A stretch of DNA of 64,000 bases, taken from contig JAAFIG010000002.1 of assembly GCA_013298595.1 (NCBI GenBank), forward strand, positions 1 to 64,000, read 5' to 3'. The position numbers and the translations under genes are program-made. Positions 2,571 to 22,814 of this stretch are shown in pieces (the first letter of the stretch is position 1; each line of letters begins with the position of its first letter). Under the pieces are notes generated by a model that saw nothing but the letters and a program-made list of their open reading frames with translations, did no database searches and was not told the DNA's origin. The stretch is from Deinococcales bacterium. GTDB lineage: Bacteria > Deinococcota > Deinococci > Deinococcales > JAAFIG01.

Positions 2571-2606
2571 CTCGAGATAAATGATGCTAGCACTATTTAT
2601 CTCGAG
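2571..2606. promoter_or_regulatory. 36-bp CTCGAG-bounded palindrome over the GTGCTAGCA core
   Basis: The sequence begins CTCGAGATAAAT and ends ATTTATCTCGAG around a TGCTAGCA centre. It is an almost perfect palindrome, with mismatches only beside the core. It lies 24 bp upstream of the GGDEF-EAL start and includes the core of the bipartite element listed separately. A dimeric regulator site is the likely role; a terminator is unlikely because no T-tract follows. Confidence 0.6.
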
Positions 2607-2625
2607 TTCTTGTGCAAAACCCACA
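2585..2625 (-). promoter_or_regulatory. Bipartite TGTG-N7-CACA / GTGCTAGCA element upstream of the GGDEF-EAL gene
   Basis: On the minus strand TGTG-N7-CACA (2625-2611) is followed, 32 nt from its start, by GTGCTAGCA (2593-2585). The same pair occurs before four other genes in the window. Probable regulator site or promoter for the GGDEF-EAL/manC operon. Confidence 0.6.
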
Positions 2626-2637
2626 TCGTCTAAAAAT

Positions 2638-4923
2638 TCAAGGTAGGACAGTGGTAAAAAGCTTGCTTCCATCACGATAATTTGGCAAATTGCGATACCA
2701 ATCCTTGGACTGCACACCACTGCTTGTAGCCCAAGGATTAAATTCTAAGTAGGCTCCACGAATATCTTGCCCTAAGCTGACCCATCCATTTGTTTGGTTC
2801 AAAACCTCTTTTAAGTGCGTAAATTTTGTTGGCAAATGTAATGCCCACGGGCGATTATCACCATCTTTGTAATAACGACCTTGTGAAACATTGGTGGTGT
2901 CATCAGCCGTACCAAATAGACTTGCGTCAGCTTTTTGGGTTGGGGCAAAACCAGCCAAATGAACTTCAATACCTCGAGTACGGTTAATGATAAATTCGTC
3001 ATTAACAAAACTGACAGGGTTGACAACAATAAATGGGTTATATGGCACATTACCAACAGCACTTAAAGCCAAAGGGCTACTAAGATCAATAGTTACCACA
3101 ACCTTACCTGGAATCTTAGTCGGTTCGTTATCAGCTACATTACTGTAAAACGGACGGCTAGCAAGTGCCGGAGGTGTCACATCATAACCATCCTCGAAAA
3201 CAATGACCGTTGCTTTATTTTGACCTGCCTCGAGACCATTGCTGGCGTAACTGATGGCTCCATAACGTGGGGGGGTACCTGCTTGGACGACCCCCATTTT
3301 TTCCCAATTATACGAAACCGCTGACACTTGGCTTGGCGATAAATTAGTTTGGAAAGCAAAACCGTTATGATAACCACCACCAAGGGCTTTCACTGTGTAC
3401 TCGGCTTTAATTTGAACTAATTCGTTATCAGCATTGGTCACATGAATCACGTTGTAATCAATCACCATGTCATTGAAGTCGTAATCACCACGTTTAGGAA
3501 ATAAATCCTCGAATAGCAATGTGCCGTAATCATTCTTGGCTGGAAAATAGTTATTTAAGGCTTTGTTTGGATCGTTTGGATAATCATCAAATGGGTCAGA
3601 AACACCGTCTCCATCAGCATCGGCAGCTTGTGGATCATTGACTGGTGAAAGTGGAACATTACGAACCACATCTGGATTTTCTGGATCTCGAGTTGGGACT
3701 GTACTAGCAACAGCGGTTGGTGGGTTGGCTTGAATGATTAAAATGGCATCATTGAAATCTTGATCGCCTCCTTGATAACGAAGAATATCCTCAAAACCAA
3801 GTATCATACTTTTTTTACCATCTACATCAGTGTTATTATCAAGCAGTACAGTTTGGGCACTTTTTTCGACAGTCATTGCCGCATTACTTTTATAAAGTTG
3901 GTAATTGATAACCTGATCCGAAAAAACTGTTTGCTGTGTGCTGCGTTCAACCACAGTTGTGCCATTCCAGCCATTGGCGACCAAAAACCAACCAATACCT
4001 GTCCCTGCAGGAAATGTGGTGCTCCATTGCTCATTGCTGGGTTTGGTTGGGTCATAATACTGCAATTGTACTCGTTTTCCTGTGGTCAGACCTCCACCAG
4101 AACCCGAAAAAGAAGCATTTGGTAATGCCATGACCATGCGGTTACTGATGTCGTTGACACTGTGTGGAGGATTGGCGGCATCGTAGAGGTAATAACCTAC
4201 CGAGTTTTTATAACCAGCACCCTCGTGCACAAAGGTCATCCAAACTTCGCCATTTTGTGCCATTACCAAATTGCTGCTGGCTCCTCGAGCAATATAGTTT
4301 TTGAGGTTAGCATTATTGGGTAGTGGTGTACCTTCAGGTAAACTGGCATTGATGGTTTGTAAGAGACTTGGGGTGACGGTAAAATTAGTGGTGAAATAAT
4401 TGGGGATCCCACCATTTGAACCAGTATTAAATGTGCCAAAGTACTTAAAAGTTGTGCCAATTGGTAAGGTTTGTGGTTTTAGGTTTGTTCTTGGTGTTTG
4501 TAATGCCGTTTTGAGCTGTGTTGCTCGTTGGTCATTGAGGTTGAGTTGAATTTTTCCTTGTTGAATTGGGACTTCAATAAGTTCGCTGGTTAATCCAATG
4601 TAATTCACTTTGATATAGAGCTTCGTTAAATCGGCTGGCACACTGATTTTTTGGATGTATTCACCTTGGCTGTTCGTTGTGCCACGCATGATTTCTTGGC
4701 TGCCAATTTCTTGGATACTATCGCCAAAATCAGTCGCTTGTTTATTTTGGTAAATCACCAATGGTGCAGTATTAACCACTGCACCAGCAGCTTTAGCCCG
4801 AATCGTAACTTGTACTTCTTGGGTGGTTGAGTAATTAAAGACACTGGTGGGTATGGTTGCTTGTTGACAGGCAATTAAACCAAAACTCAGCGTCAAACAC
4901 GAAATAACAATCTTCTTTTTCAT
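2638..4923 (-). CDS. LruC-domain and DUF4114 lipoprotein
   Basis: A predicted exported lipoprotein of 761 residues. The start at 4923 is chosen because AAGGAGA precedes it and it yields a clean signal peptide (MKKKIVISC...) ending in the lipobox LIAC. An upstream in-frame ATG at 4977 lacks these features. A beta-rich N-terminal half is followed by a DUF4114-like segment near residues 375-400 (GFEDI...DQDFNDAIL). A calcium-loop-like DADGDGVSD lies near 436, and an LruC/DUF4842-type C-terminal domain starts with FEDL and DYDFNDM near 470-485. Such proteins sit on the surface or in the envelope; the function is not established. Its promoter region carries the same element as the c-di-GMP and polysaccharide genes, which suggests a matrix or surface role. 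Confidence 0.85.
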   Translation of the reverse strand: MKKKIVISCLTLSFGLIACQQATIPTSVFNYSTTQEVQVTIRAKAAGAVVNTAPLVIYQNKQATDFGDSIQEIGSQEIMRGTTNSQGEYIQKISVPADLTKLYIKVNYIGLTSELIEVPIQQGKIQLNLNDQRATQLKTALQTPRTNLKPQTLPIGTTFKYFGTFNTGSNGGIPNYFTTNFTVTPSLLQTINASLPEGTPLPNNANLKNYIARGASSNLVMAQNGEVWMTFVHEGAGYKNSVGYYLYDAANPPHSVNDISNRMVMALPNASFSGSGGGLTTGKRVQLQYYDPTKPSNEQWSTTFPAGTGIGWFLVANGWNGTTVVERSTQQTVFSDQVINYQLYKSNAAMTVEKSAQTVLLDNNTDVDGKKSMILGFEDILRYQGGDQDFNDAILIIQANPPTAVASTVPTRDPENPDVVRNVPLSPVNDPQAADADGDGVSDPFDDYPNDPNKALNNYFPAKNDYGTLLFEDLFPKRGDYDFNDMVIDYNVIHVTNADNELVQIKAEYTVKALGGGYHNGFAFQTNLSPSQVSAVSYNWEKMGVVQAGTPPRYGAISYASNGLEAGQNKATVIVFEDGYDVTPPALASRPFYSNVADNEPTKIPGKVVVTIDLSSPLALSAVGNVPYNPFIVVNPVSFVNDEFIINRTRGIEVHLAGFAPTQKADASLFGTADDTTNVSQGRYYKDGDNRPWALHLPTKFTHLKEVLNQTNGWVSLGQDIRGAYLEFNPWATSSGVQSKDWYRNLPNYRDGSKLFTTVLP

Positions 4924-5009
4924 GGTGTTCTCCTTTGGCGTAGCAACCAAACAAAATGTTGTGTTGAAATTGCACAAGCATTCTTGAAAAAATCGGGTAC
5001 GCTTCTATA

Positions 5010-5051
5010 GTGCTAGCACTTAACTTCAAGCAAAGATGTGCAAAAACCACA
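5010..5051 (-). promoter_or_regulatory. Bipartite TGTG-N7-CACA / GTGCTAGCAC element between divergent genes
   Basis: On the minus strand TGTG-N7-CACA (5051-5037) precedes GTGCTAGCAC (5019-5010) by 32 nt start to start, the same spacing as at 2585-2625. The orientation fits the lipoprotein gene at 4923, but the site may also control the divergent gene at 5091. Confidence 0.6.
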
Positions 5052-5090
5052 TTGACCTCTCGAATCTCACGCCAAGGGTGGTTATTTATA

Positions 5091-6224
5091 ATGGGTTTTT
5101 TATTCGTCTTAAACGCGGGACTTTATCTCGTCTTGACCCCGAATCTAATTCCGCGTCAGCAACCCACCCTGCCTTACTGGGATTTACTCGAGCGACCAAA
5201 TTTAGATTGGTTGAGTCTTGGCAAAAATCCAGAACTCGAGACAGGGCAATGGCGAGCTACCCAGTATCAGCAAGCACAATTACCAATTTCACTTTTACCA
5301 AATGAACATTATCAAATCTCAGCAGAGATTAAACCTTCTTACAACGGAGTTTTTGAGCTTTGGTTTAACACCCAACAAATGCTGCAATTTCGTAAAACCC
5401 AAATGGTTAAAGTAGAGGTTTATCCTAATGGTATTGCCTTGACAGCTTGGGTTTATAACCGTTTTGCAGTAGCTCAGATTCTCGAGCGTGCTGAAATAGC
5501 TTTAACCACAACTATTAATTTAGAAATTTTTGTGGCAATACGGCACTTTGCAGTTTATGTCAATCAAAAATACCTATTCAGTGCACCCTTGCAATACCTT
5601 GGAGGCATTCCAGGCATCGGAATTGAAAAAATGGTTCTAGAGGAAATCCGCGTTCAAGCAACCCACGTCAAAATTCCAAAACCACAACCTTGGTTCGGAC
5701 TCGAATCAACCGCTTGGCAAGCCATTCGTGGTACATGGCGGGTCAATCACGGACTGGAGCAACTTGACACTCGAGCCTTTGATCAATTTGCGGTTTACCA
5801 AAAAAAGATTCCCGCATTACAAGAACTTGACCTCGAGCTAAAAGGGGTAGGAGCAGGACTAGTTTTTGCCATGCCAGAAGCGAAAAATCTAGCTTTAGCT
5901 TTTATGGTACGACTAAGTAACGATGGGCATTCAATATTTTGGGGATATTTTAATCAACAAAACATTTTTATTGGTCGTGGCTACCAAAAGATTAAACCTG
6001 CTGTTCAACACAAGCTAAAACTGCGTTTTTTAAAGCAAAAATATGCACTCTATTTGGATAAACAATTGCTGGTAAATAACATTGCCTTTACCCCTCGAGC
6101 AGGTTTTGTTGCATTAACCACATCGCAAAGCAGTGCTAAATTTCTTCAATTTCAAGTCAATCAACAATCAGTATTGCCTCAGGAAGGTAAGAAATCGACA
6201 TTACTTCAAGAAGGTAAAAAATGA
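5091..6224 (+). CDS. Membrane-anchored beta-rich protein of unknown function
   Basis: Not recognised. A 377-residue protein with one N-terminal hydrophobic segment (MGFLFVLNAGLYLVL) and a beta-rich exterior. Two similar halves (about 30-190 and 205-360) resemble laminin-G or concanavalin-like sugar-binding folds by pattern only, for example GVFELWFN and GLVFAMPEAKNLALAF. It ends in a duplicated QEGKK motif. I chose the ATG at 5091, after AAGGGTGG, because the longer frame would begin with a GTG inside the GTGCTAGCAC regulatory palindrome. A TTG at 5052 is another option. The stop overlaps the start of the mannosyltransferase-like gene by 4 bp, so the two are coupled. Confidence 0.6.
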   Translation: MGFLFVLNAGLYLVLTPNLIPRQQPTLPYWDLLERPNLDWLSLGKNPELETGQWRATQYQQAQLPISLLPNEHYQISAEIKPSYNGVFELWFNTQQMLQFRKTQMVKVEVYPNGIALTAWVYNRFAVAQILERAEIALTTTINLEIFVAIRHFAVYVNQKYLFSAPLQYLGGIPGIGIEKMVLEEIRVQATHVKIPKPQPWFGLESTAWQAIRGTWRVNHGLEQLDTRAFDQFAVYQKKIPALQELDLELKGVGAGLVFAMPEAKNLALAFMVRLSNDGHSIFWGYFNQQNIFIGRGYQKIKPAVQHKLKLRFLKQKYALYLDKQLLVNNIAFTPRAGFVALTTSQSSAKFLQFQVNQQSVLPQEGKKSTLLQEGKK

Positions 6225-7318
6225 ATTGGTTTTCTCGCATTCAGAATTGGTTTTTTCGCATTCATCCTTGGCAATTTGTGCTGCTCATATTTCTTTCAAG
6301 TCGAGTGCTTGTGAGTGTTGCTGCTGTTTTAGCGCAGCTCTGGCTACCAATGCCTAATAGTGGCGAATTTTATCGAATCCACCCAGATTTTCCGCTACTA
6401 GATGCGGTTGCGCGTTGGGATAGTGGCTTTTATCTCGAGATTGCCAAGTATGGGTATGCTTTTTCTCTCAACGAGATATCAAATGTTGCATTTTTCCCGT
6501 TGTACCCACTGCTGTTAGCCATATTCACCCCAGTCTTTGGTGATGCTGTAATCGCAGGTACAATCATTAGCCATGCTTGCCTATTTGCAGCCCTGTTCTA
6601 CTTAGAAGCTTTAACTCGAGAACAACTAAGTGTGGCAACAGCTCGTGTTGCCCTAACAACACTCTGTTTTTTTCCAACAACATTTTTTTTTAGTGCTGTG
6701 TATACCGAATCGCTATTTTTTCTTTGTGTAGTTGCCACTTTTTATTATGCTCAACGACAAGCTTTTGCACTGGCAAGCCTTACTGCCTTACTTGCCAGCA
6801 GTACACGCTTAATTGGTGTGGTGCTCTGTGTTGTTTTATGGCTTGAACTTTGGTCATCTGGTAGAAAACAATGGCACTGGATGTTTGTGCCGCTGCTTGC
6901 CGTAGTATCCTATGCTATTTTTTTGCAGCATCTCTTTGCTGACCCAATTGCATTTTGGACAGTACAACCTGCTTTCGGTAGACAAGGATTTAATCCAATT
7001 CTAGCAATATATACTGATCTCGAGCCGTTTTTTCAAGGGCAGATTCCTTGGAATACTGTACTTGATTTAAGTGCTTTGTTTTTGGTTTTAGGTTTAATAC
7101 CACAGCTTTGGAAAATTCGTCCAAGTTATGCTGTCTATAGCGCTCTAAGTGTCATCATACCACTACTTAGCGGCACAGGGAGTTTATCGCGGTATGTATT
7201 GGTTTTATTTCCTATTTTTTTGCTCCAAAGACGTGTTTCATGGTGGATGCTCATCAGTTCGATTGGGCTTTTGATGTACTTAACAGCTTTATTTGCTACT
7301 TGGAAATTTGTGGCTTAG
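6221..7318 (+). CDS. PIG-V-like integral membrane mannosyltransferase
   Basis: A 365-residue protein with roughly eight to ten membrane segments. The first extracytoplasmic loop carries RWDSGFYLEIAKYGY (near 65-80) followed by AFFPLYPLL, the hallmark of the PIG-V/GT-C mannosyltransferase family, which uses lipid-linked sugar donors. The Asp of WDS is the likely catalytic residue in this family. The gene overlaps the preceding gene by 4 bp. With manC nearby, transfer of mannose to a surface glycan is plausible. The acceptor cannot be read from sequence. Family confidence is good, substrate confidence low. Confidence 0.78.
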   Translation: MNWFSRIQNWFFRIHPWQFVLLIFLSSRVLVSVAAVLAQLWLPMPNSGEFYRIHPDFPLLDAVARWDSGFYLEIAKYGYAFSLNEISNVAFFPLYPLLLAIFTPVFGDAVIAGTIISHACLFAALFYLEALTREQLSVATARVALTTLCFFPTTFFFSAVYTESLFFLCVVATFYYAQRQAFALASLTALLASSTRLIGVVLCVVLWLELWSSGRKQWHWMFVPLLAVVSYAIFLQHLFADPIAFWTVQPAFGRQGFNPILAIYTDLEPFFQGQIPWNTVLDLSALFLVLGLIPQLWKIRPSYAVYSALSVIIPLLSGTGSLSRYVLVLFPIFLLQRRVSWWMLISSIGLLMYLTALFATWKFVA

Positions 7319-7321
7319 CCA

Positions 7322-7906
7322 TTAGCTTAAAATTAATTTCATAATATCTTCAATATGCTCAGCAATAATCGGTTTACTAAGAATCAAATAAGGGCATTGT
7401 TTAGTACCTAATAATGGGGTTAAATCTGAAGGGAAACCCGTCAATGCTGCTAAAGGTAACTCAGGCATCTGTGTACGCACTTGACGAATAAAGCCGATAC
7501 CATCTTTTTTATCAGGCATTCGCACATCGCTAATGACTAAAGAAACGGTGTGTTGCTCGAGTAATGTTAAACCTTCTTTAGGTGAAGCTGCTTCAATTAC
7601 TTCGCAATTGAGTGCTTGCAATTCAAGGCGAAGAATTTCTCGAATCTCAGGGTCATCATCTGCGATCAGAATTTTAGCACGATATTTAGACCGCACATAA
7701 GTACCCCGACCTTGTTCTCGAGAGATCAAGCCTTCGGCTTCCAATACCGAGAGCACATGACGAGCTGTGAGTGATGCCACGCCAAAATCCTTAGCGAGTT
7801 CGATGTGTGGTGGTAGTTTTGTGCCAATAGGTAATTTGCCTGAACGAATTTGTTCACGCAGGGTTTCGGCGACTTTTCCGGCTTTCGTACCTAGTTGATA
7901 AATCAT
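7322..7906 (-). CDS. GntR-type winged-helix fused to a response-regulator receiver
   Basis: A 194-residue cytoplasmic regulator. Residues 1-70 form a GntR-type winged helix (SGKLPIGTKLPP, then SREQGRGTYV). Residues 78-194 form a complete receiver: acidic pocket DDD, phospho-acceptor Asp in VISDVRMP (about 125), the Thr of AALTG and the Lys of LSKP. Receivers normally precede the DNA-binding domain, and GntR helices normally precede ligand-binding domains, so this order is unusual. AAAGGATAT precedes the ATG. It is convergent with the mannosyltransferase-like gene (3 bp apart) and divergent from the acetylation operon. No partner kinase is adjacent. It is a candidate regulator of the neighbouring surface genes. 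Confidence 0.88.
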   Translation of the reverse strand: MIYQLGTKAGKVAETLREQIRSGKLPIGTKLPPHIELAKDFGVASLTARHVLSVLEAEGLISREQGRGTYVRSKYRAKILIADDDPEIREILRLELQALNCEVIEAASPKEGLTLLEQHTVSLVISDVRMPDKKDGIGFIRQVRTQMPELPLAALTGFPSDLTPLLGTKQCPYLILSKPIIAEHIEDIMKLILS

Positions 7907-7956
7907 CTATATCCTTTAACTAATTTTAACACATGTAGGTGAGCGTTTTTGAGTGC

Positions 7957-7997
7957 TGTGAAAATTGACCATCTATAAAATTATATTGTGCTAGCAT
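7957..7997 (+). promoter_or_regulatory. Bipartite TGTG / GTGCTAGCAT element upstream of the MBOAT operon
   Basis: TGTGAAAATTGACCA starts at 7957 and GTGCTAGCAT at 7988, 31 nt later; a TTTATAATT follows. Same element pair as upstream of the GGDEF-EAL, LruC-domain and HD-GYP genes. Confidence 0.6.
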
Positions 7998-8052
7998 TAT
8001 TTATAATTCAAGCAGTACACTAAGCATCAAACAAGAACTGAGGTGAAACACA

Positions 8053-9408
8053 ATGAATTTTCAATCATACGCCTTTATATTTATGTTCTTACCCCTGACA
8101 TTGCTGGTTTTTTTCTTTGTACCAAAACATTGGCGCTTTTTACCATTGCTACTTTCAAGCATCATTTTTTATAGCTTACTCGAGATTAAAGCGGTATTTT
8201 TACTTTGGTCAGTCATTGTCATAACATTTTTGATTGCCAAAAAAGTAGCTCAAGGACAGCATAGGCGTACTTGGTTTTGGCTAGGAATCACTTTAAATTT
8301 GGCTTTTTTGGCTTTATTCAAATATGCCACTTTTGCCTTAGATACATTACAGCTCTTGACACCTCTTTTGCCAGCAAAAGTCGATTTTCAGCTACTATTA
8401 CCAATTGGTTTGAGTTTCTATATTTTTAATGCAATTGCATACCTGAGCGATGTTTACCGTAAGGAAATTCCTGCCAGTCTAGATTTTTGGCATTTTGCCA
8501 CTGGGATGTCGTTTTTTGCATCATTATTAAATGGTCCTTTACTGCGACAATCAAGTATCGCAGCTCAGTTTAAAAATCTGCATTTTGATGCTAATGGTTT
8601 TAGTATTGGTGCACAACGTTTTATGCAAGGATTTTGCAAAAAGGTCTTACTGGCTGATGCACTTGCACCATTGGCTCGAGAATGCTTTGTGGGTACACCA
8701 AGCAGCGCCAATTTGGTGTTTGGATCAGTACTGTATAGTTTACAATTATTTTTTGATTTTAGTGGTTATAGCGATATGGCAATTGGTATAGCCCGTATGT
8801 TTGGTATTTATTTACCCGAGAATTTTAATCAACCATACAGCGCAACGAGTTTGAGTCAATTTTGGCAGCGTTGGCATATGAGTTTATCAGGATTTTTAAA
8901 GCAATATGTTTACATCCCACTTGGTGGCAATCGCTACGGCGAATTCCGTACTGGGCTGAACTTGGTTTTAACCATGACACTTGGGGGGTTATGGCATGGT
9001 GCAAATTGGACTTTTATTTGTTGGGGTGTATGGAACGGTATTTTTTTATTACTCGAGCGAATGTTTCAACAGCCTTTTCCCTTACCTAAATGGTTAGCCA
9101 TTCCAAGAACTCTAGTGGTCATCCTGCTTGGCAGACTATTTTTTGTCGCTCCAGATGTGCAGACCGCTTTGACCTATTTTACTTCTTTATTTTTAGGTAA
9201 TACTTGGCAACTCAGTCAAAATGTTTTGCTTTTGGCAACACCAGAACGAATGCTAGTTGCATGTATCGCTATCTTAGGCTGTTTGCCATTGCAACTCAAG
9301 CCAATCTGGATAAAACACAGCCGTTTAGTATGGCTACCACTGTTTTGGGTAGCTATTGCTTTTGTAGCAGCAAGAACAGCTGAGCCTTTTTTATATTACA
9401 AATTTTAG
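8053..9408 (+). CDS. algI: MBOAT O-acyltransferase, AlgI-like
   Basis: A polytopic membrane protein of 451 residues that, in the AlgI family, moves acetyl groups across the inner membrane for polysaccharide O-acetylation. Visible family motifs are FDFSGYSDMAIG, FNQPYSATSLSQFWQRWH and the catalytic GGLWHGANW with the invariant His near residue 315. The length is typical. The ATG follows GAGGTGA. It is the first gene of an operon with two AlgJ/AlgX-like proteins, an AlgF-like protein and a glycosidase, which is the composition of an acetylation module. The polymer itself is unknown: no alginate polymerase gene is visible, so the acetylated glycan may not be alginate. Confidence 0.92.
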   Translation: MNFQSYAFIFMFLPLTLLVFFFVPKHWRFLPLLLSSIIFYSLLEIKAVFLLWSVIVITFLIAKKVAQGQHRRTWFWLGITLNLAFLALFKYATFALDTLQLLTPLLPAKVDFQLLLPIGLSFYIFNAIAYLSDVYRKEIPASLDFWHFATGMSFFASLLNGPLLRQSSIAAQFKNLHFDANGFSIGAQRFMQGFCKKVLLADALAPLARECFVGTPSSANLVFGSVLYSLQLFFDFSGYSDMAIGIARMFGIYLPENFNQPYSATSLSQFWQRWHMSLSGFLKQYVYIPLGGNRYGEFRTGLNLVLTMTLGGLWHGANWTFICWGVWNGIFLLLERMFQQPFPLPKWLAIPRTLVVILLGRLFFVAPDVQTALTYFTSLFLGNTWQLSQNVLLLATPERMLVACIAILGCLPLQLKPIWIKHSRLVWLPLFWVAIAFVAARTAEPFLYYKF

Positions 9409-9416
9409 GAGAAAAA

Positions 9417-10472
9417 ATGATTGTGTTAAAATCAACTCAAGCCAAGTATCAAAGCAATTGGATCAGTATTGGTTTTGTTGGTACGCTGTTTTTAGGCTTT
9501 TTGTTTTGCCTATTTGTTTTGCCACAAATTTATTTAGCCCAAGGTACAATACAAAACAAAGTAGCTACAGCATTACCATTGACTCAAGCAGCTGTTGGTT
9601 TTGTTAATGCTTGGCGCTATCGTTTTTTGGGTTCGACCGATGATCAAGTACAGATTGGCAAAGATGGTTGGTTATTTATCAGCCAGGATCTCTACTTAGC
9701 AACTCAGCCGCTAGAAAATATGCAGGCTCGAGCTAAAGCTGTGATTACTTTAGCCAAAGCATTACGTTCCCAAGGTATTCAATTAATGGTGGCTGTTGTA
9801 CCTAGTAAAGCTCGGATTCAAGCAAGTTCTTTAAGAACAGCATTCCCAACAGTCTTACAAAACGGGTACAGGGATTTTATCGACTTACTCGAGACAAGTG
9901 GTGTGACTGCACCTCGATTAGATGTACCATTGCTGGCAGCTGCGCAACAACAAGCTGTGTTTTTAAAAACAGATACCCATTGGAACATCAAAGGTGCCAA
10001 GATAGCAGCGCAAACTGTTGCCCAAGCGGCACTACCACTTCAACTCGAGTTACCAGTGGCACGCTTTCAAACAATACAAAGCGCCATACCACAAGAAATT
10101 AGTGGAGACTTGATTCATTTAATGGGTTTAGAAGATGTTGCAGTACCATTTCGTCCAGAAAATGATGTCGATTATAGTCAACAAACCCAGAATCTCGAGA
10201 ATTCTAATAGCGGTTTGCTCGGCGCACCGAGTAGTGCAGTGGTGTTGGTAGGGACTTCATATTCATTGCGAAGCAATTTTCTAGGAGCACTCGAGCAATC
10301 TCTTGGCACAAGGGTTCTAAGTGTGGCACGGGAAGGTTCTGGGTTTGAAGGAAACATGACCATATTTCTCGAGGATATAAAACGCTCAAAAGCTTTGCCC
10401 AAACTCTTAATTTGGGAGTTCAATGAGCGCTTTTTGTATTTGCCAATCACAAAAAAGTTGCCGCCTATATGA
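9417..10472 (+). CDS. AlgJ/AlgX-like SGNH acetyltransferase, first copy
   Basis: A 351-residue protein with one N-terminal membrane anchor (about 17-40) and an extracytoplasmic SGNH-like domain. The family motif TDTHWNIKGA lies near residues 183-192 and a Ser-containing GTSYS near 278, matching the Asp-His and Ser elements of AlgJ, AlgX and DHHW proteins. These place acetyl groups on exported polysaccharide after AlgI delivers them. It follows the MBOAT gene by 8 bp with AGGAG before the start. It resembles the second copy at 11104 but is shorter and lacks its C-terminal extension. Confidence 0.82.
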   Translation: MIVLKSTQAKYQSNWISIGFVGTLFLGFLFCLFVLPQIYLAQGTIQNKVATALPLTQAAVGFVNAWRYRFLGSTDDQVQIGKDGWLFISQDLYLATQPLENMQARAKAVITLAKALRSQGIQLMVAVVPSKARIQASSLRTAFPTVLQNGYRDFIDLLETSGVTAPRLDVPLLAAAQQQAVFLKTDTHWNIKGAKIAAQTVAQAALPLQLELPVARFQTIQSAIPQEISGDLIHLMGLEDVAVPFRPENDVDYSQQTQNLENSNSGLLGAPSSAVVLVGTSYSLRSNFLGALEQSLGTRVLSVAREGSGFEGNMTIFLEDIKRSKALPKLLIWEFNERFLYLPITKKLPPI

Positions 10473-10501
10473 ATGTTTTAGTTATGAATACAAGGAGGAT
10501 T

Positions 10502-11107
10502 ATGAAACAATTTTTTGCTCTATTCTTGGTTTGTGGTTTAGCTGGCGCATTAGCTTCGCCTCTGTATGCTCCTGCACCGCCACCTGATTCGGCATTTTTG
10601 CGCTTAGTCAATGCAACAATGGTTGTATCGCAAGTTGCTATTGGTAGTGTTGTATTCCCTTTGCCTTGGGCAGAAACCACAAAATACCGAGTGGTTAAGG
10701 AAGGGTCACGGGTTTTGCGTGTTGGTATAAATAATACATCTGTGCAACTTGAGGCGGGGAATTTTTATACAGCTGTACTGTTTGCTGGGAAATGGTGGCT
10801 TAATCTGGATCGTACTCACTCGAGTTTATTACAAGCACGAATTGCTGTTTACAACGCTTCGAGCCTTGGTGTGGCGATCAAAACAGCCGATGGTCAACTG
10901 AGCTTGTGGGAGAAACTCGAGACGAAAACGTACCAAATGCGAGCTGTTAATGCTGTGAAAGTGCGTTTAGCTGTCTTTGTCGGAGAAAAAAAATGGTTGC
11001 TCCCAGAAACGCAACTTGAAGCGAATATGGCTTACAGCATTTTTATTTTTGGTGATGCGAAAAATTTCAAAGCTATTTGGTTGCGAAATACCACAGAGGT
11101 TCTATGA
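10502..11107 (+). CDS. algF: AlgF-like exported acetylation adaptor
   Basis: A 201-residue exported protein. The start at 10502 is chosen over two earlier in-frame ATGs because a strong AAGGAGG precedes it and it gives a proper signal peptide (MKQFFALFLVCGLAGALA). The mature part is beta-rich and begins with an AlgF-like segment (FLRLVNATMVV...). AlgF is a periplasmic partner of AlgI, AlgJ and AlgX. The gene sits between the two AlgJ/AlgX-like genes and overlaps the next one by ATGA, so translation is coupled. The family call rests on sequence pattern and position. Confidence 0.7.
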   Translation: MKQFFALFLVCGLAGALASPLYAPAPPPDSAFLRLVNATMVVSQVAIGSVVFPLPWAETTKYRVVKEGSRVLRVGINNTSVQLEAGNFYTAVLFAGKWWLNLDRTHSSLLQARIAVYNASSLGVAIKTADGQLSLWEKLETKTYQMRAVNAVKVRLAVFVGEKKWLLPETQLEANMAYSIFIFGDAKNFKAIWLRNTTEVL

Positions 11108-12777
11108 AACAGCTAATTGTGATGATTCTTTTGACAACGGCTGCTTTTGCAGCTTCGTTCACTAGTTTTCTTGATACAGGTGTGAGTCAAGGGCAACGTG
11201 GTTGGTTATTTCATGTAGCTGAATACGGTGCCTACCAACAAGAACAGTCTCGAGATATTGAAGATAAGCTACGTTTTATTGCTGGTATCAGTCAAGCCTT
11301 TAAAGAACAAGGCGTACAGTTATTGGTGGCACTCGTACCTGGTAAAATTCACTTGTACGAATCAGAACTATCGTCGGATTTCCCCCTCACAGATACCATT
11401 CGTTCGCGTTATACCCGAGCACTACAAATGTTGCAGACAAGCGGTGTGCAAACCGTGGATTTATTAACACCAATGAGTGTAGCGCAACGCAGCCCTGAAG
11501 AAAAAACTTATCCGATCTATCAGAAACTCGATCATCATTTCTCAAGTCGAGGCGCCTTAGTTGCCGCTAAAGCTGTGGCAGATAGTGTGCGAAAAATAAT
11601 ACCAGCCGCTGATTTGCCAGTTAGTAAATTCATGTTAAAGCCACAACCCAAGGAGTATTACGAGGAATCAAGTTTATTACAGCGTTTGCCAAAATCTGAG
11701 CAAGCTAAATATCCAAAAGAAGCTTTTATTCCTTACGAACTTGAGCGTAGTGGTAATAGTTTATTTTCGAGCCAAACAGCCAATGTGGTTTTGGTTGGTT
11801 CTTCGGCTTCTAAAGGTGGGCGTTTATGGGCATTTGAGTATGGTATTCCTTTCTATTTGGCTTCAGAAGTGGTTAATGCCGCTCAAATTGGGCGTGGTCC
11901 ATGGTTGCCACTGGAAGATTATCTCACTGATCCAAGTTATCAAAACAACAAACCAAAAGTCATCATTTGGCAGTTATGGGAAGCCTTTTTACTTGATGTG
12001 GATCAAGCTATGTTACCTGAGGATTGGGCTGCTCGGCTTGGAGCATTAATCGCTGATGGAAGCCCCTTACCAAAATTAGCATTACCAAGTGCCAATTTGG
12101 AAATTAGTGTACCAAGTGAGGCTCGCGCCACCGATTCAATGTTACTCGAGGTCAGTAGTCCAAGCCTTGAACGGCTCAAACTTGAAGTGATTGGTTTAAA
12201 AAGTCAAAAGCTTTTGACTTTGCGATTAGGGGCAATTGGGCAACGGTACCGTTTAAAAATCCCCTTGGCACTTGCGGGTGATACCGCACAGCGTATTCGT
12301 TTGTTGGCAAATACTAAAACTTTACAAGTATTTAAAGTGCAGCGTATGGCATTATCAAGTGCTATGCAAAAGTTACTTGCACCGTTGGGGGAACAAAATC
12401 TTTTAGCCCGTACCGACCGTTTTGCTTTGCGTGGTTTTGCTGACCTTGAATCAAATGGGGTGCGTTGGGCACTCGGGGCATCAACCAGTGTGGGGTTTTG
12501 GAGCTTAGACACAAAACCGATTCAACTTGAAGTTGATGTTTATAATCCAATTGAAAAACAAGAAGTGACTTGGCTACTTAATGGTGCACCACTCGAAATA
12601 TGGCGTGACTTAAAAGCCGAAGAGAATAAACAACGAACATTCACTTTTACTCCATTGAGTGGTAAGAATATTCTTGAGATGCGGGTGAAATCATTTAATG
12701 GTAACGGCAGTGAATTTGCTAAAACTGATGCCAGACCATTATCGGTGATGTTTAATCGCTTTTCATTGATTTTTTAA
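11104..12777 (+). CDS. AlgX/AlgJ-like SGNH acetyltransferase with C-terminal beta domain
   Basis: A 557-residue exported protein with signal sequence MKQLIVMILLTTAAFA. The catalytic-type motifs are LDHHFSSRGAL near 140 and VGSSASKGG near 231. Residues from about 330 to the end form a beta-rich part, possibly carbohydrate-binding as in AlgX. The ATG at 11104 overlaps the AlgF-like stop and has AGAGG before it; the longer in-frame start lies within that gene and is not needed. It is probably the periplasmic acetyltransferase acting on the same polymer as the first copy, with the extra domain holding the substrate. Confidence 0.78.
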   Translation: MKQLIVMILLTTAAFAASFTSFLDTGVSQGQRGWLFHVAEYGAYQQEQSRDIEDKLRFIAGISQAFKEQGVQLLVALVPGKIHLYESELSSDFPLTDTIRSRYTRALQMLQTSGVQTVDLLTPMSVAQRSPEEKTYPIYQKLDHHFSSRGALVAAKAVADSVRKIIPAADLPVSKFMLKPQPKEYYEESSLLQRLPKSEQAKYPKEAFIPYELERSGNSLFSSQTANVVLVGSSASKGGRLWAFEYGIPFYLASEVVNAAQIGRGPWLPLEDYLTDPSYQNNKPKVIIWQLWEAFLLDVDQAMLPEDWAARLGALIADGSPLPKLALPSANLEISVPSEARATDSMLLEVSSPSLERLKLEVIGLKSQKLLTLRLGAIGQRYRLKIPLALAGDTAQRIRLLANTKTLQVFKVQRMALSSAMQKLLAPLGEQNLLARTDRFALRGFADLESNGVRWALGASTSVGFWSLDTKPIQLEVDVYNPIEKQEVTWLLNGAPLEIWRDLKAEENKQRTFTFTPLSGKNILEMRVKSFNGNGSEFAKTDARPLSVMFNRFSLIF

Positions 12778-12780
12778 GCT

Positions 12781-14331
12781 ATGTGGCATTCTCGAGTATG
12801 GTGGTTTTTATTTGCTACGCTCATTTTTATCTTGGCTTTTGGCGTGTGGTTTTTTCTACCGCGCTGGCAGCTGGTTAGCCGTACTGAACAAGCACTGAGC
12901 AGCCTTGCTATGCAGCAAAAATCCCCAGGACTTTGGCGTTGGACGAATACCCAATTGCCTTTGCCAAGGCTATTTGAACTTTCTCGTCAGGATGAAATTA
13001 CTAGTCACTACCAAGCCGCATTACTCGAGTTAGGGTATGCCACGCAAAGCTCTGATCGTAGTGGGTTACGTACCTACTTTCAAGAAGCGGCTCTTGAGGA
13101 TGCGAAATTAGCAGCCATGTCAGTTTCGGCTCAAGCCAGTTGGGATCATCAAATGAAGTTACGTTTTTACGCTCCTGATGGTGCAACTGTTGCATTTACG
13201 GATTCAGCTTGGTTAGGATTTATCATTGGTGATGCTTTTGAAATACGTTATCAAGTCCTTGATGTTGTGATGCGCTTATCGGATGGTAATTGGCGAATTA
13301 TTCATTGGCGAATCATCCAGCGCTCCAAACCAAAAATACAAGCAGACTCGAGACTGACAGCCGTAAATATAGACCAGTTGCGAGGGGTCAATTATGTAGG
13401 GCGTTCACATCCTTTTGCTGATTTTTGGGATAACTGGAACAGCGCTGAAGTTCAAGCCGATTTTCGGCTGGCAAAGGCTTTGCAATTACCAGTGATTCGA
13501 TTTTTTATTCCATTTCCAACGTCTGAAGCTGTATATCAGAATTTGCCAATCATGCTCGAATTAGCTAAAACTACAGGAGTACAGTTGCTGCCGACTTTAC
13601 TGGATTCGTACACGCAGTATCGGCTCGAGGATATCCCCGCAATTCATGCTTCGATCACAAGGCTTTTACCGTTCCTAAAGCATACAAGTGTACTCGCAAT
13701 TGATATTAAAAACGAAGCCGAGCGCGATGTGAAAACCGCCTCTTGGCGCAATATTCGCGGCGTGCTGGGCTTTTTAGCGGTTTGGCTGCGAAAAAATACT
13801 TCAAAGCCAATCACAGCTGGTCTTAGTCAACCCGATTCGATCTTAGCTCAATCACTCGATTTTGTGACCGTTCATCATTATGGTTCGTTGGTGCAACTCG
13901 ATCAGCATTTAGTTGCCGCTAAGACCACAAATAAACCAGTTTTACTTGAGGAATTTGGTTTTCATACGCAGACCAATGCTTTGCCTGATCCACATACGGA
14001 AGCTGAACAAAGCCAGTATTTTGCGGCAGTTCTGGCGCTGTGTGCACGGCTCAAGGTTGGTTTTTTGGTGTGGAATTTACATGATTTTACGGCTGGGAAC
14101 ATGCCTGCTGGACGTGAGGTGGAACGTCATTTGGGTCTAATTCGTACCGATGGTTCACTCAAGCCTGTAACCGCAGTTCTACGCGGCGAGAAGATAGAAA
14201 ATACTCCTTGGTGGGATCGTTTTTTAAAAGTAAAAGCACTATTTTCTGTGTGGTGGTTAGGGTTGATATTCTTTTGTATTTGGTGGTTTCGACGCGGTTT
14301 CAGTACAAGAAAAAATAATAATACTTATTAG
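12781..14331 (+). CDS. Membrane-anchored GH5-like glycoside hydrolase
   Basis: A 516-residue protein with a membrane segment at each end (about 7-28 and 480-500) and an extracytoplasmic middle. Residues 60-180 look like an NTF2-like domain. Residues 190-460 look like a TIM barrel of the GH5/GH39 clan: a KNEAER stretch near 310 with the probable acid/base Glu, VHHYG near 364, and LLEEFGF near 389 with the probable nucleophile Glu. Polysaccharide operons often carry such an enzyme to trim or clear polymer in the periplasm. It starts 3 bp after the AlgX-like gene. The substrate is unknown. Confidence 0.75.
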   Translation: MWHSRVWWFLFATLIFILAFGVWFFLPRWQLVSRTEQALSSLAMQQKSPGLWRWTNTQLPLPRLFELSRQDEITSHYQAALLELGYATQSSDRSGLRTYFQEAALEDAKLAAMSVSAQASWDHQMKLRFYAPDGATVAFTDSAWLGFIIGDAFEIRYQVLDVVMRLSDGNWRIIHWRIIQRSKPKIQADSRLTAVNIDQLRGVNYVGRSHPFADFWDNWNSAEVQADFRLAKALQLPVIRFFIPFPTSEAVYQNLPIMLELAKTTGVQLLPTLLDSYTQYRLEDIPAIHASITRLLPFLKHTSVLAIDIKNEAERDVKTASWRNIRGVLGFLAVWLRKNTSKPITAGLSQPDSILAQSLDFVTVHHYGSLVQLDQHLVAAKTTNKPVLLEEFGFHTQTNALPDPHTEAEQSQYFAAVLALCARLKVGFLVWNLHDFTAGNMPAGREVERHLGLIRTDGSLKPVTAVLRGEKIENTPWWDRFLKVKALFSVWWLGLIFFCIWWFRRGFSTRKNNNTY

Positions 14332-14349
14332 AGAGCGTTTCACATTTCG

Positions 14350-14404
14350 TGTGATTTTTGACCAAGATACACTGGTAAATCAAAGTATAGTGCTAGCACT
14401 ATAC
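14350..14404 (+). promoter_or_regulatory. Bipartite TGTG / GTATAGTGCTAGCACTATAC element upstream of the PAS-GAF-HD-GYP gene
   Basis: TGTGATTTTTGACCA starts at 14350. Forty nt downstream lies GTGCTAGCAC inside a perfect 20-bp palindrome (14385-14404). The site at 17199 has the same 40-nt spacing. Likely operator or promoter of the gene at 14470. Confidence 0.65.
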
Positions 14405-14469
14405 GATACTGGTTTGGGAGAATCACATCTTTGGTCAAACCATTATAAATAGTAAAAATGGAGGATTTT

Positions 14470-17190
14470 ATGCTGACTCATGATGTATTTGCACATTTGG
14501 AAACCCCGAGTCTACTCTCGGCAACTCGGATTCAAGACATCCAAGAATTCCCTAATAACCAGCCAGAAACGAAAACCCTCGAACATTACGAGCGTAACCT
14601 AGTGACTTTGCTCGAAAATCTACCTGATATCATTGCTCGTTTTGATCAGGAATGTCGCTACTTGTACATCACACCAAATTACGAAGTGTGGAGCGGTTTG
14701 AAGCAACACCAAGTGATAGGTCGAGCTATGGCGGAGTTGCCAGTACCAAAGCGTTTATTGTACCTATGGCAAAAAGCAATTCGGCAAGTTTTTACAACCG
14801 GACAAGCCACCACCATCGAATACGAAAACCAATATGGGCGCGAACAACGCTTTTTTGAAACTCGTTTACTACCCGAATTTGACGCAATGGATTTAGTTGA
14901 ATCAGTGCTGACCTGCACTCGAGAAATCACACAGACAAAATCCTTAATGACTCTACTCGAAACTCGAGAACGGCGGTTACGGGCTTTAATTGAACACAGT
15001 GCCGATGCTATGACACTATTTGATGCAGAAGGAAATATTATTTATGCTAGCCCTGCCTCGAGTCGTTTACTCGGTGTAGTCCTCGAGAAATTTGTTGGTA
15101 TCAATGCCCTAGATTTTATTCACCCAGAAGATGTGATGCTTGCGCGAACTGCTTTTCGTAAATCATTGGCTCAGTCTAATATTGGTGTACCAACAGAGGT
15201 GCGTGTGCGGCGGCATGACGGTAGTTGGTGTTGGGTAGCAGGTACGTTCACCAATTTACTTGCTGACCCTGATGTGATGGCTGTGCTAGCCAATTATGGC
15301 GATAGCAGTGAACGCCGAATGCAAAATGAATTGATCCAAAAACGTGAAGAACAATATCGAACCATTATCGAAAATCTACCCGACGCAATGGTAGCTCAGA
15401 TTGACCTAGATATGCGTTTTTCTTTTGTTGGTGGTAAATTATTGCAAAATTGGGGACGCGATAATGCAGAACTCGAGAACTGCCGACTCGAAGATTGCGA
15501 GCAAAAATATTTATTACAAGCTAGCGCCTTGTACCGTGAAGCGTTCACTGGCGTTCGAGTCGAACGTGAGATTCAGTATCATGGTAAGAATGTCAAAATT
15601 TATGTGATTCCGACTTTTGATAAGCAACAAAGAGTAACCGGAGCCAATATCCTAGCTTTGGATGTGACTGATATTCACACCACTAAAGCAGCTTTGCAAA
15701 CAAGCCAAAAATTATTTCAAGCGGCTTTTGAGCAATCACAAATTGGAATGGCTATTTTAGATTTAAGTGGTAGCTGGCAGCAAATTAATCCAGCCTTAGC
15801 TAATATGCTTGGCTATACTATTGAAGAGCTGCAACGAAAAACCGTTTCAGAAGTTTCGCATCCACAAGAATATCACACCATGAAATGTGCAACCGAACTC
15901 CTAGAAGTAGGGCAAGCTCAGTATGAAAAACGCTATCTTCATAAGCATGGATATGAGATTTGGGCACGAGTACATGTCACATTAGTCAATGACGGTGTTA
16001 AACAGTATGCCTTTAAGCAAATTGAGAATATCAGTAGCGAAAAATATCATGAAATACAAATTCAGGAACTCAATACTGCCCTCGAGCAGCGCTTACAACG
16101 TTTACAGGCATTACGACAAATTGATAATGCTTTAAACTCGAGCTTGGATTTATCTTTGACTTTGGGTTTGGTGGTTGAACAAATCCGAACGCAACTGGAT
16201 GCACAAGCCGCTGCTGTATTACTGTATTACCCTGAATCCCTGAGTTTTCGTTATTTTACGGGGCGTGGCTTTAAAACTGAAGCGGCTAAAAGCTTTTCGG
16301 TGCGTTTAGGACAACCACTGGGTGGGATTGTTGGTTTAGATCGTATGGCTTTGGTGGTACCTGATGTTTTTCAAGTGGATTTACCACCTAGTCATGAAGA
16401 TTTTTTGCGACGTGAAGGTGTTGGTTCGTTTATTGGTTTGCCATTGTTGGCAAAAGGTGAATTGCTTGGTGTGATTGAAATTTATCATCATCAAGCATTG
16501 CAAGTTTCCTCGGATACTATGGATTACCTTGAGATGCTGGTTGGTCAAGCAGCCCTAGCCATTGAAAATACTCGAGTCTTACGGGCATTGCAATATTCCA
16601 ATACCGAGTTAGCAATGGCATATGATGAAACTATTGAAGGTTGGTCAAGGGCACTTGATTTACGGGATAAAGAAACTGAAGGGCATAGCCGTCGTGTGAC
16701 TGAAATGACGGTGCGTTTAGCTCGAGCGATGAACTTACCTGAATCGGAAATCATTCATATGCGTCGTGGTGCTTTGTTACATGATATCGGGAAAATGGGT
16801 GTGCCTGACGAAATTCTTTTAAAGCCAGGAAAATTGACTGACGATGAATGGGTTGCAATGCGTAAACATCCAGATTTTGCTTATGAGTTGCTTGCTCCTA
16901 TTGGCTTTCTTGGTGCAGCTTTGGATATTCCATATGCACATCACGAAAAATGGGACGGGACTGGTTATCCACGTGGCTTAAAGGGGTCTTGTATTCCGTT
17001 AGCTGCCCGAATCTTTGCTGTAGTTGATGTGTGGGATGCTTTGAAATCTGATCGCCCATATCGTCCAGGTTGGACAACTGAACGTGTGATTGAACATATT
17101 AGGGCTTCGGCAAGTACCCATTTTGATCCTCAGGTTGTAGAAGTTTTTCTCAGTGTTTTGGCGACAACAACTGACGAATTAGCTATCTGA
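14470..17190 (+). CDS. Multi-PAS, GAF, HD-GYP sensor phosphodiesterase
   Basis: A 906-residue cytoplasmic protein. About four PAS domains (about 30-530) are followed by a short coiled region, a GAF domain (about 550-700) and an HD-GYP domain (about 715-890). The catalytic motifs are intact: HSRR, LLHDIGKMG near 770, HHEKWDGTGYP near 825-833, and VVDVWDAL. HD-GYP proteins degrade c-di-GMP, so this should lower it in response to signals sensed by PAS or GAF. The start at 14470 is preferred to 14458 because GGAGG lies six bases before it. It stands between two copies of the GTGCTAGCAC element and is probably monocistronic. Confidence 0.93.
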   Translation: MLTHDVFAHLETPSLLSATRIQDIQEFPNNQPETKTLEHYERNLVTLLENLPDIIARFDQECRYLYITPNYEVWSGLKQHQVIGRAMAELPVPKRLLYLWQKAIRQVFTTGQATTIEYENQYGREQRFFETRLLPEFDAMDLVESVLTCTREITQTKSLMTLLETRERRLRALIEHSADAMTLFDAEGNIIYASPASSRLLGVVLEKFVGINALDFIHPEDVMLARTAFRKSLAQSNIGVPTEVRVRRHDGSWCWVAGTFTNLLADPDVMAVLANYGDSSERRMQNELIQKREEQYRTIIENLPDAMVAQIDLDMRFSFVGGKLLQNWGRDNAELENCRLEDCEQKYLLQASALYREAFTGVRVEREIQYHGKNVKIYVIPTFDKQQRVTGANILALDVTDIHTTKAALQTSQKLFQAAFEQSQIGMAILDLSGSWQQINPALANMLGYTIEELQRKTVSEVSHPQEYHTMKCATELLEVGQAQYEKRYLHKHGYEIWARVHVTLVNDGVKQYAFKQIENISSEKYHEIQIQELNTALEQRLQRLQALRQIDNALNSSLDLSLTLGLVVEQIRTQLDAQAAAVLLYYPESLSFRYFTGRGFKTEAAKSFSVRLGQPLGGIVGLDRMALVVPDVFQVDLPPSHEDFLRREGVGSFIGLPLLAKGELLGVIEIYHHQALQVSSDTMDYLEMLVGQAALAIENTRVLRALQYSNTELAMAYDETIEGWSRALDLRDKETEGHSRRVTEMTVRLARAMNLPESEIIHMRRGALLHDIGKMGVPDEILLKPGKLTDDEWVAMRKHPDFAYELLAPIGFLGAALDIPYAHHEKWDGTGYPRGLKGSCIPLAARIFAVVDVWDALKSDRPYRPGWTTERVIEHIRASASTHFDPQVVEVFLSVLATTTDELAI

Positions 17191-17198
17191 AGACTTAG

Positions 17199-17248
17199 TG
17201 TGATTTTTGCACACGAGATATCAAAAAAACACTATATAGTGCTAGCAC
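17199..17248 (+). promoter_or_regulatory. Bipartite TGTG-N7-CACA / GTGCTAGCAC element upstream of the 17-27 kb operon
   Basis: TGTG-N7-CACA spans 17199-17213 and GTGCTAGCAC spans 17239-17248, 40 nt start to start. It is the only intergenic signal before ten closely packed genes, so it probably controls the whole polysaccharide and partner-switch operon. Confidence 0.65.
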
Positions 17249-17279: not shown

Positions 17280-17906
17280 ATGGAATACCAACAAGCAACC
17301 GTCGGCGCTTTTTTCCTCCCAGAGCATGGTTATTTTGCCCAGAATGCTATCACTCAATTAGCAATCGAACTCGAGGAACGCGGCTTAGAACCTCAGGGAC
17401 ATACCCAACGAATTGTCCGTTTGTGTGAATCTATCGGCAATATGCTTGGTTTACATAACGAAAGCATGGAAGCTTTGATTCATGCTGCCTACCTACACGA
17501 TATTGGCAAAATGATGTTACCTACAAAACTACTGCTCAAACCCGATACCCTTGAGCCAGCCGAATGGGACATCATCAAAACCCATGCAAAATGGAGTGCT
17601 ATTATTGCAGCTGCCATACCCAGTGTACATCCTCGAGCTGTTGCAGCTGTTTTGCATCATCATGAACGCTGGGACGGTACAGGCTATCCATCGTATTTGA
17701 GTGGTGAACAAATCCCTATCGAATCTCGAGTTCTAGCTGTGTGCGATGTATATGACACATTGGTTTCTAAGCGTGCTTACAGCCGAGCATGGTCTCCACA
17801 TAATGCCTTAGCCGAAATTCAATCACGCCGAGGTGAGCACTTTGACCCAAAAGTTGTGGATGCTTTCTTAGAGCGTGCATTGGGTAAATTCACTTTTGCA
17901 AGTTAG
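17280..17906 (+). CDS. Stand-alone HD-GYP phosphodiesterase
   Basis: A 208-residue cytoplasmic protein that is little more than an HD-GYP domain. YLHDIGKMM (near 73) and HHHERWDGTGYPS (near 125-136) are complete, as is VCDVYDTL. It should hydrolyse c-di-GMP, or act as a binding and signalling module, without its own sensor. AAGGAG precedes the ATG. It is the first gene of a ten-gene operon that continues with a flippase and glycosyltransferases, linking c-di-GMP removal directly to polysaccharide assembly genes. It resembles the HD-GYP part of the gene at 14470. Confidence 0.92.
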   Translation: MEYQQATVGAFFLPEHGYFAQNAITQLAIELEERGLEPQGHTQRIVRLCESIGNMLGLHNESMEALIHAAYLHDIGKMMLPTKLLLKPDTLEPAEWDIIKTHAKWSAIIAAAIPSVHPRAVAAVLHHHERWDGTGYPSYLSGEQIPIESRVLAVCDVYDTLVSKRAYSRAWSPHNALAEIQSRRGEHFDPKVVDAFLERALGKFTFAS

Positions 17907-17917
17907 GGGATATTAGT

Positions 17918-20994: not shown

Positions 20995-21280
20995 AGTTGA
21001 ATCGGCGTTTCGGGTTTCAACCATATTTTTAACTGGACGCTTTGATGCTCACACCACTGAGGCATTTCGGGCAGCCGTTGGAACAATTCAAGATGGACAA
21101 TTAACCATTGATTTAGCCGAAGTAACTTTTATTGATTCGCGTGGTTTGGCGGCTCTGATTAATGTTTATCATCGTTTTGGCTCAGCCTTAAAGTTGCGTT
21201 CACCTCAAGATGCAGTCAAACTGATTTTTGAAGTCACAAATCTTGATCAGGTTTTTCCATTTGAAAGTCTGACCCCATGA
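20984..21280 (+). CDS. STAS-domain anti-sigma-factor antagonist-like protein
   Basis: A 98-residue single STAS domain. The phosphorylatable serine is in FIDSRGLAAL near residue 50. Starting at 20984 gives a normal domain; the longer frame adds a Cys-rich tail lying inside the glycosyltransferase gene. It overlaps that gene by 11 bp and the PP2C gene by 4 bp. With the phosphatase and kinase-like genes that follow, it forms a partner-switching set: the kinase phosphorylates the serine, the phosphatase removes the phosphate, and the unphosphorylated form binds the kinase. Confidence 0.88.
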   Translation: MDIKVESAFRVSTIFLTGRFDAHTTEAFRAAVGTIQDGQLTIDLAEVTFIDSRGLAALINVYHRFGSALKLRSPQDAVKLIFEVTNLDQVFPFESLTP

Positions 21281-22811: not shown

Positions 22812-22814
22812 ATC

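Follow-up and report, generated by a model that had tools for sequence, protein, structure and literature searches.

Composite promoters in a Deinococcales polysaccharide and cyclic di-GMP locus suggest a general class II-type activator paired with a local GntR-receiver repressor

The first 64,000 nucleotides of contig JAAFIG010000002.1 from a Deinococcales bacterium (GenBank assembly GCA_013298595.1), referred to here as the window, were found to contain a polysaccharide and cyclic di-GMP (c-di-GMP) locus of ~27 kb with a composite promoter at the head of each main transcription unit. The promoters combine a TGTG box with a palindrome, GTGCTAGCA(C/T). The reading favored here, with a probability of roughly 0.6, is that a general class II-type activator would switch the locus on at the box and that a local protein, in which a GntR winged helix is joined to a response-regulator receiver domain (GntR-receiver), would repress it at the palindrome. 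The genome under study (G000; 4.58 Mb) was compared with those of a congener (G001) and a family relative (G003).

Five two-motif sites at the operon heads

A preliminary description of the window had reported five sites combining the two motifs, and all five were recovered at the same coordinates, with the spacings of 31/32 and 40 nt confirmed. Measured from start to start, the box-to-palindrome spacing was 32, 32, 31, 40, and 40 nt for sites 1 to 5. Sites 1 and 2 lie on the − strand and sites 3 to 5 on the + strand; in each case the order along transcription is TGTG box, palindrome, and gene. In the following list, and throughout, positions within promoters are given as an index counted from the T of TGTG, at which the 12 promoters of G000 and G001 were aligned.

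2611..2625, − strand: site 1, putative activator box TGTGGGTTTTGCACA; the congener has TGTGATTTTTGCACC in the same position
2584..2593, − strand: site 1, palindrome GTGCTAGCAT; predicted −10 TAGCAT at 2584-2589 (index 36)
2571..2606: 36-bp dyad around the site 1 palindrome, CTCGAGATAAAT-AGTGCTAGCATC-ATTTATCTCGAG as read on the − strand
5037..5051, − strand: site 2, leftward putative activator box TGTGGTTTTTGCACA
5010..5019: site 2, palindrome GTGCTAGCAC, common to two divergent promoters; predicted leftward −10 TAGCAC at 5010-5015 (−)
4962..4976, + strand: site 2, second, rightward box TGTTGAAATTGCACA, 48 nt from the palindrome (also 48 in G001)
4998..5003, + strand: site 2, predicted rightward −10 TACGCT (index 36); TAGTCT in G001
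7957..7971, + strand: site 3, putative activator box TGTGAAAATTGACCA
7988..7997, + strand: site 3, palindrome GTGCTAGCAT; predicted −10 TAGCAT at 7992-7997 (index 35)
14350..14364, + strand: site 4, putative activator box TGTGATTTTTGACCA; TGTGATTTTGGTCACA in G001, a perfect CRP-type site
14386..14391, + strand: site 4, predicted −10 TATAGT (index 36)
14390..14399: site 4, palindrome GTGCTAGCAC, the center of a 20-bp perfect palindrome, GTATAGTGCTAGCACTATAC
17199..17213, + strand: site 5, putative activator box TGTGATTTTTGCACA
17235..17240, + strand: site 5, predicted −10 TATAGT (index 36)
17239..17248: site 5, palindrome GTGCTAGCAC

The exact palindrome GTGCTAGCAY occurred at six places in the genome, five of which were the five sites, lying inside 14.7 kb (binomial p of ~2e-12 for this clustering). 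The sixth, on contig C7, falls within the coding sequence of a DEAD-box helicase and was rejected as a promoter site. TAGTGCTAGCAC was present only at sites 2, 4, and 5 in the whole genome. In agreement with the earlier remark that no such site was noticed beyond 29 kb, neither an exact palindrome nor a pair was found past 17.3 kb in the window. Degenerate palindromes with up to 2 mismatches numbered 86 in the window against 89 expected, which is chance level, and therefore only the exact or near-exact form was considered meaningful.

All five palindromes were found at the syntenic operon heads in G001, and the TAGTGCTAGCAY form occurred nowhere else in that genome. The spacings there were 32, 32, 31, 42, and 40 nt, one of which differs from G000 (42 versus 40). 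Across the five promoters that could be compared without gaps, identity between the two species was 100% for the palindrome (50/50 bases), 88% for the box, 52% for the linker, 29% for the upstream flank, and 42% downstream. The rarer TGACCA right half of the site 3 box was also kept, and the second site 2 box reads TGTGAAAATTGCACA in the congener. The site 3 promoter persisted in G001 despite a different first gene, which encodes a dockerin/cohesin-like secreted protein (L018:11962-13527); a gene of this kind between the site 3 promoter and MBOAT was seen in G001 only. The earlier proposal was supported in taking the sites as regulatory, in placing them at the heads of polysaccharide and c-di-GMP operons, and in involving two elements.

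Three features extend the preliminary description: a sixth promoter at site 2, a fixed −10 hexamer, and a conserved 36-bp dyad at site 1. Site 2 is a divergon, in which the second box points to the right and is followed by its own hexamer at index 36. The site 1 dyad has perfect 12-bp arms (CTCGAGATAAAT and ATTTATCTCGAG) and is kept in G001, though the encoded protein is 57% identical; the dyad may offer the palindrome protein additional half-sites.

The palindrome goes with a GntR-receiver gene

Within the locus, one gene encodes a candidate for the palindrome-binding protein:

7322..7906, − strand: GntR winged-helix and receiver protein, 194 amino acids (PF00392, 7.9e-17; PF00072, 1.2e-16)

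The winged helix is N-terminal and gave Protein Data Bank (PDB) matches to DNA-binding domains of the YvoA, PdhR, and FadR types, and residues 79 to 186 form a response-regulator receiver rather than a ligand domain of the FadR, HutC, YtrA, or MocR type. The receiver residues DDD 83-85, D127, T156, and K178 are present and are invariant in both orthologues, that of G001 being 69% identical. Among the proteins scanned at 1 to 31 kb, this was the sole one with a recognized DNA-binding domain.

Of 111 genomes of the order searched, only G000 and G001 carry the GntR-receiver gene, and both have the palindrome sites. In G003, the MBOAT/AlgX/AlgF, LruC-like, HD-GYP, and manC-like genes are kept in a partly rearranged order, with 57% identity for the AlgX-like protein. 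Its genome contained no GntR-receiver gene and no TAGTGCTAGCAY. A box does occur there upstream of manC, where TATACT is the hexamer at index 36, and another, TGTGATTTTTGCACA with CATGAT at index 36, lies in the divergent region that corresponds to site 2. Since G003 has boxes without the palindrome or the gene, the box appeared to have accompanied the locus or family and the palindrome to go with the GntR-receiver gene. A palindrome match in another genome, G012, lies within a lipoprotein-like coding sequence and was set aside.

The palindrome GTGCTAGCAC, with the extended form TAGTGCTAGCAYTA, fits the generic GntR operator consensus GT-Nx-AC (PMC4494728), which is a loose one, and is tied to the 7322-7906 protein by co-occurrence. 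As judged from these sequence features, the palindrome is most likely an operator private to the locus and bound by the GntR-receiver. The preliminary description had named this protein as one candidate binding protein, and it is a good candidate for one of the two proteins, given that palindrome and gene co-occur. It is unlikely that the palindrome is instead bound by a different, unlinked regulator common to G000 and G001: binding by the GntR-receiver is something that we infer, and the congeners have many common genes that are missing from G003, but the genuine sites are all confined to the GntR-receiver's own locus, a classical signature of a local regulator, and the gene is missing where the palindrome is missing.

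A fixed −10 accounts for the variable spacing

Of the 12 promoters of the two species, 10 had a TANNNT hexamer starting at index 35/36 (p of ~1e-9 or lower), and the remaining 2 had TAGCAC there. At a spacing of 31/32 nt, the −10 is TAGCAT/C and forms the right part of the palindrome; at 40 nt, it is TATAGT and overlaps the left palindrome edge. The 8-nt jump in spacing is explained by the 14-nt word TATAGTGCTAGCAC, in which two −10-like hexamers, TATAGT and TAGCAC, are offset by exactly 8 nt. Hence, the fixed quantity is the distance from box to −10, not that from box to palindrome.

No conserved −35 was found 17 bp upstream of the index 36 hexamer in the locus promoters. TTGACC/TTGCAC within the box was tried as a classical −35 and rejected, as the ~22 bp to the −10 is too long. 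With transcription assumed to start ~7 nt after the hexamer, the predicted start sites place the box center at about −41 and the palindrome center at about −12, −4, or +5; at the rightward site 2 promoter, the palindrome occupies predicted +1 to +10. An RNA hairpin in the leader was likewise rejected, the palindrome being upstream of the predicted start at spacing 31/32.

These positions bear on the sign of regulation. Many receiver proteins activate once phosphorylated, and the palindrome is retained at every promoter of the locus, so the same composite promoter could be one at which the GntR-receiver activates from the palindrome or works together with the box protein. This was judged improbable, because polymerase is usually blocked by proteins that bind on the −10 or past it, as the palindrome does here, and because the position of the palindrome relative to the fixed −10 and the box varies, leaving no constant contact geometry.

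The TGTG box recurs outside the locus

The box consensus is TGTGATTTTTGCACA, with a variant ending in TGACCA. When TGTGRTTTTTGMMCA was searched outside the locus with up to one mismatch, TANNNT was present at index 35/36 in 8 of the 25 genome matches, an enrichment with p between 1e-3 and 2e-7 depending on the background. The pattern box-N20/21-TANNNT was matched 17 times in the genome, and its reversed control 0 times. Four of these matches belong to the locus; among the outside matches, a few fall within open frames and may be chance. Genes following the outside boxes, named by sequence inspection, encode GAF-HD-GYP, OmpR-type regulator, DUF4388-like, and di-haem peroxidase proteins. The GAF-HD-GYP gene (L167; G000:C4, ~38.3 kb) has the TGTG box directly upstream with TAGACT at index 35, and given this case, the activator regulon probably extends to other c-di-GMP genes.

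In the genome-wide search that the preliminary description had proposed, the two-box pattern was found only at the five sites, and the box alone, with its −10, recurred elsewhere. The idea that the pair forms one promoter family was not supported, as the box is in use across the genome and the palindrome is confined to the locus.

Across the order, the box-(−10) pattern was rarer, with scattered instances. In G005, which belongs to another family of the order, a heparinase II/III-like gene (L191) is preceded by TGTGATTTTTGACCA and, at index 36, TAAATT. In several species of genus g13 (L186-L189; G025, G019, G037, and G057), a BTAD/AAA-type regulator gene is preceded by TGTGCATTTTGCACA or TGTGCATTTTGACCA and a conserved −10-like hexamer, TACCCT/TACTCT, at index 36. 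Within the order, the 15-bp box may be ancient.

By its predicted position near −41.5, over the −35 and at a fixed distance from the −10, the box is most likely a class II-type activator site at about −41 that replaces the −35. It is most likely read by a general activator, a CRP/FNR-family protein. Four Crp-HTH proteins are encoded in the genome (L050-L053). Of these, L053 is of the DdrI/SdrP type (6e-73 to DdrI) and has the recognition helix VRETVTK, identical to that of SdrP, and L050 has SRETITR; both are recognition helices of the GTGA-reading kind. SdrP has been reported to be a class II activator whose in vivo sites overlap the −35 (PMC8465061).

The spacings had earlier been taken to suggest that two proteins, on box and palindrome, come together on a single DNA face, with shifts of about one turn. 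Two conserved motifs at discrete spacings make this tempting, but the values of 31/32, 40 (42), and 48 nt follow 8-nt steps rather than 10.5; each step of 8 bp turns the palindrome by ~274°, onto a different face, and a shift of 16 bp leaves it half a turn out of phase. Boxes lacking the palindrome also occur, both elsewhere in the genome and in G003, and a shared face is thus very improbable. Least probable of all is that an alternative sigma factor uses GTGCTAGCA as its −10 or extended −10 and TGTG...TTG as the −35: TGCTAGCAT does read as an extended −10 at spacing 31/32, but the distance from GTGCTAGCA to the box varies by 8 to 16 nt with TANNNT staying at index 35/36, the hexamer at spacing 40 is TATAGT on the upstream palindrome edge, and box promoters elsewhere use an ordinary TANNNT.

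Proposed mechanism

In the favored scheme, a CRP/FNR-type activator at the box would recruit RNA polymerase to the fixed −10. A GntR-receiver dimer at the palindrome, over the −10/+1 region, would block the polymerase, and the block would be lifted or tuned through phosphorylation or dephosphorylation of the receiver domain. The whole locus, with its GGDEF-EAL protein, two HD-GYP proteins, acetylation genes, and glycosyltransferases, would then form a private regulon nested in a wider activator regulon. The sequences show the motifs with their positions, conservation, and distribution; the identities of both binding proteins, repression in preference to activation, and control by phosphorylation are the parts that we infer.

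Several observations weigh against this scheme. The leftward −10 of site 2 (TAGCAC) is poor. The box is 15 bp (GT-N9-AC or the TGACCA variant) in 11 of the 12 promoters and departs from the TGTGA-N6-TCACA geometry, only G001 site 4, TGTGATTTTGGTCACA, having the canonical 16-bp form. SdrP requires GT-N10-AC, and a 1-bp change of the spacer abolished its binding (PMC8465061); the box is 1 bp short of this, so the activator protein cannot be named with confidence, and it may be another CRP paralogue or belong to another family. The co-occurrence of palindrome and GntR-receiver sets two related species against the rest and is effectively one evolutionary event. A further point is the looseness of the GntR consensus.

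More tentatively, the GntR-receiver could be a dedicated, phosphorylation-controlled repressor of the whole alginate-like locus, with a single operator slid in 8-nt steps over a fixed class II promoter and TATAGTGCTAGCAC supplying both the operator and either −10. If so, one 14-nt word would double as an operator and as the source of two alternative −10 hexamers. The analysis offers a two-input scheme that can be tested, in which a general class II activator would be combined with a private repressor at a c-di-GMP/polysaccharide locus of the Deinococcota, a lineage in which control of this sort seems to have received little study. It also singles out one candidate regulator, whose domains are combined in an unusual way, and an operator defined to 10 to 12 bp, and it corrects a tempting structural reading of the motif spacing by showing that the box-to-(−10) distance is the fixed one.

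Layout of the locus

The transcription units headed by the composite promoters are as follows.

904..2547, − strand (site 1): GGDEF-EAL protein, then a manC-kind nucleotidyltransferase at 3-893
2638..4977, − strand (site 2, leftward): DUF4842 (LruC-domain)/DUF4114 protein by Pfam
5010..7318, + strand (site 2, rightward): open reading frames 5010-6224 and 6221-7318
8053..14331, + strand (site 3): operon for MBOAT, two AlgX-like, AlgF-like, and 516-amino-acid proteins; alginate-type O-acetylation
14458..17190, + strand (site 4): PAS-GAF-HD-GYP protein
17280..27431, + strand (site 5): operon for HD-GYP and 381-amino-acid proteins, glycosyltransferases, a STAS-SpoIIE-HATPase-REC module, and two large proteins

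The Pfam scan assigned no family to open reading frame 5010-6224, whose true start is probably downstream of 5010; 6221-7318 encodes a PIG-V-like protein. The 381-amino-acid protein of the last operon had no Pfam match. At 20948-23177, the same operon carries a partner-switching module, with STAS, SpoIIE phosphatase, HATPase_c_2 kinase, and single receiver genes in succession. A PAS-GAF-HisKA histidine kinase (27417-29051, −) stands at the end of the locus and is retained in G001; from its position, it is a possible partner kinase of the GntR-receiver.

The hexamer CTCGAG was ~23-fold overrepresented in the window (261 in 64 kb, against 11 expected). It was also frequent in the relatives, with 167 copies in 39 kb of G001 (L018/L019) and 292 in 56 kb of G003 (L162-L164), an abundance that resembles that of the HIP1 iterated palindrome of cyanobacteria.

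Comparison with known systems

Neither class II activator promoters nor GntR operators are new in kind; the variation here lies in the joining of GntR to a receiver, the 15-bp length of the box, and an operator that slides. Within the limits of the search, no counterpart of this arrangement was found described in plasmids, genome contigs, or open papers. Other GntR-receiver fusions were not clearly found in genome contigs and plasmids, where matches were mainly receiver-only or GntR-only, and the literature searched, which did not cover subscription papers, held no description of a GntR-receiver regulator of such kind.

The promoters resemble the class II CRP/FNR promoters of Thermus thermophilus SdrP (TTHA1359) and Deinococcus radiodurans DdrI in having TGTG-type inverted half-sites at about −41 that replace the −35, and this genome encodes a DdrI/SdrP-type protein with VRETVTK. 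They differ in the 15-bp length of the box, the frequent TGACCA right half, and a T-tract in the middle of the box. The palindrome is similar to the operators of FadR, HutC, and YtrA in being a short, perfect GT...AC palindrome with A/T flanks that overlaps the −10/+1 region, and in serving divergent promoters from one operator, as at site 2. However, its GT-AC gap is 6 nt, compared with 2 to 4 in FadR/HutC, with that of YtrA lying farther from the center, and the putative regulator carries a phospho-receiver where GntR-family repressors have a ligand domain. Unlike the pathway-specific local repressors of exopolysaccharide loci, the proposed regulator joins GntR to a receiver, and the locus carries its own GGDEF-EAL and two HD-GYP proteins; the proposed scheme shares with them the plan of an in-locus regulator with all its sites there, acting in addition to a global activator.

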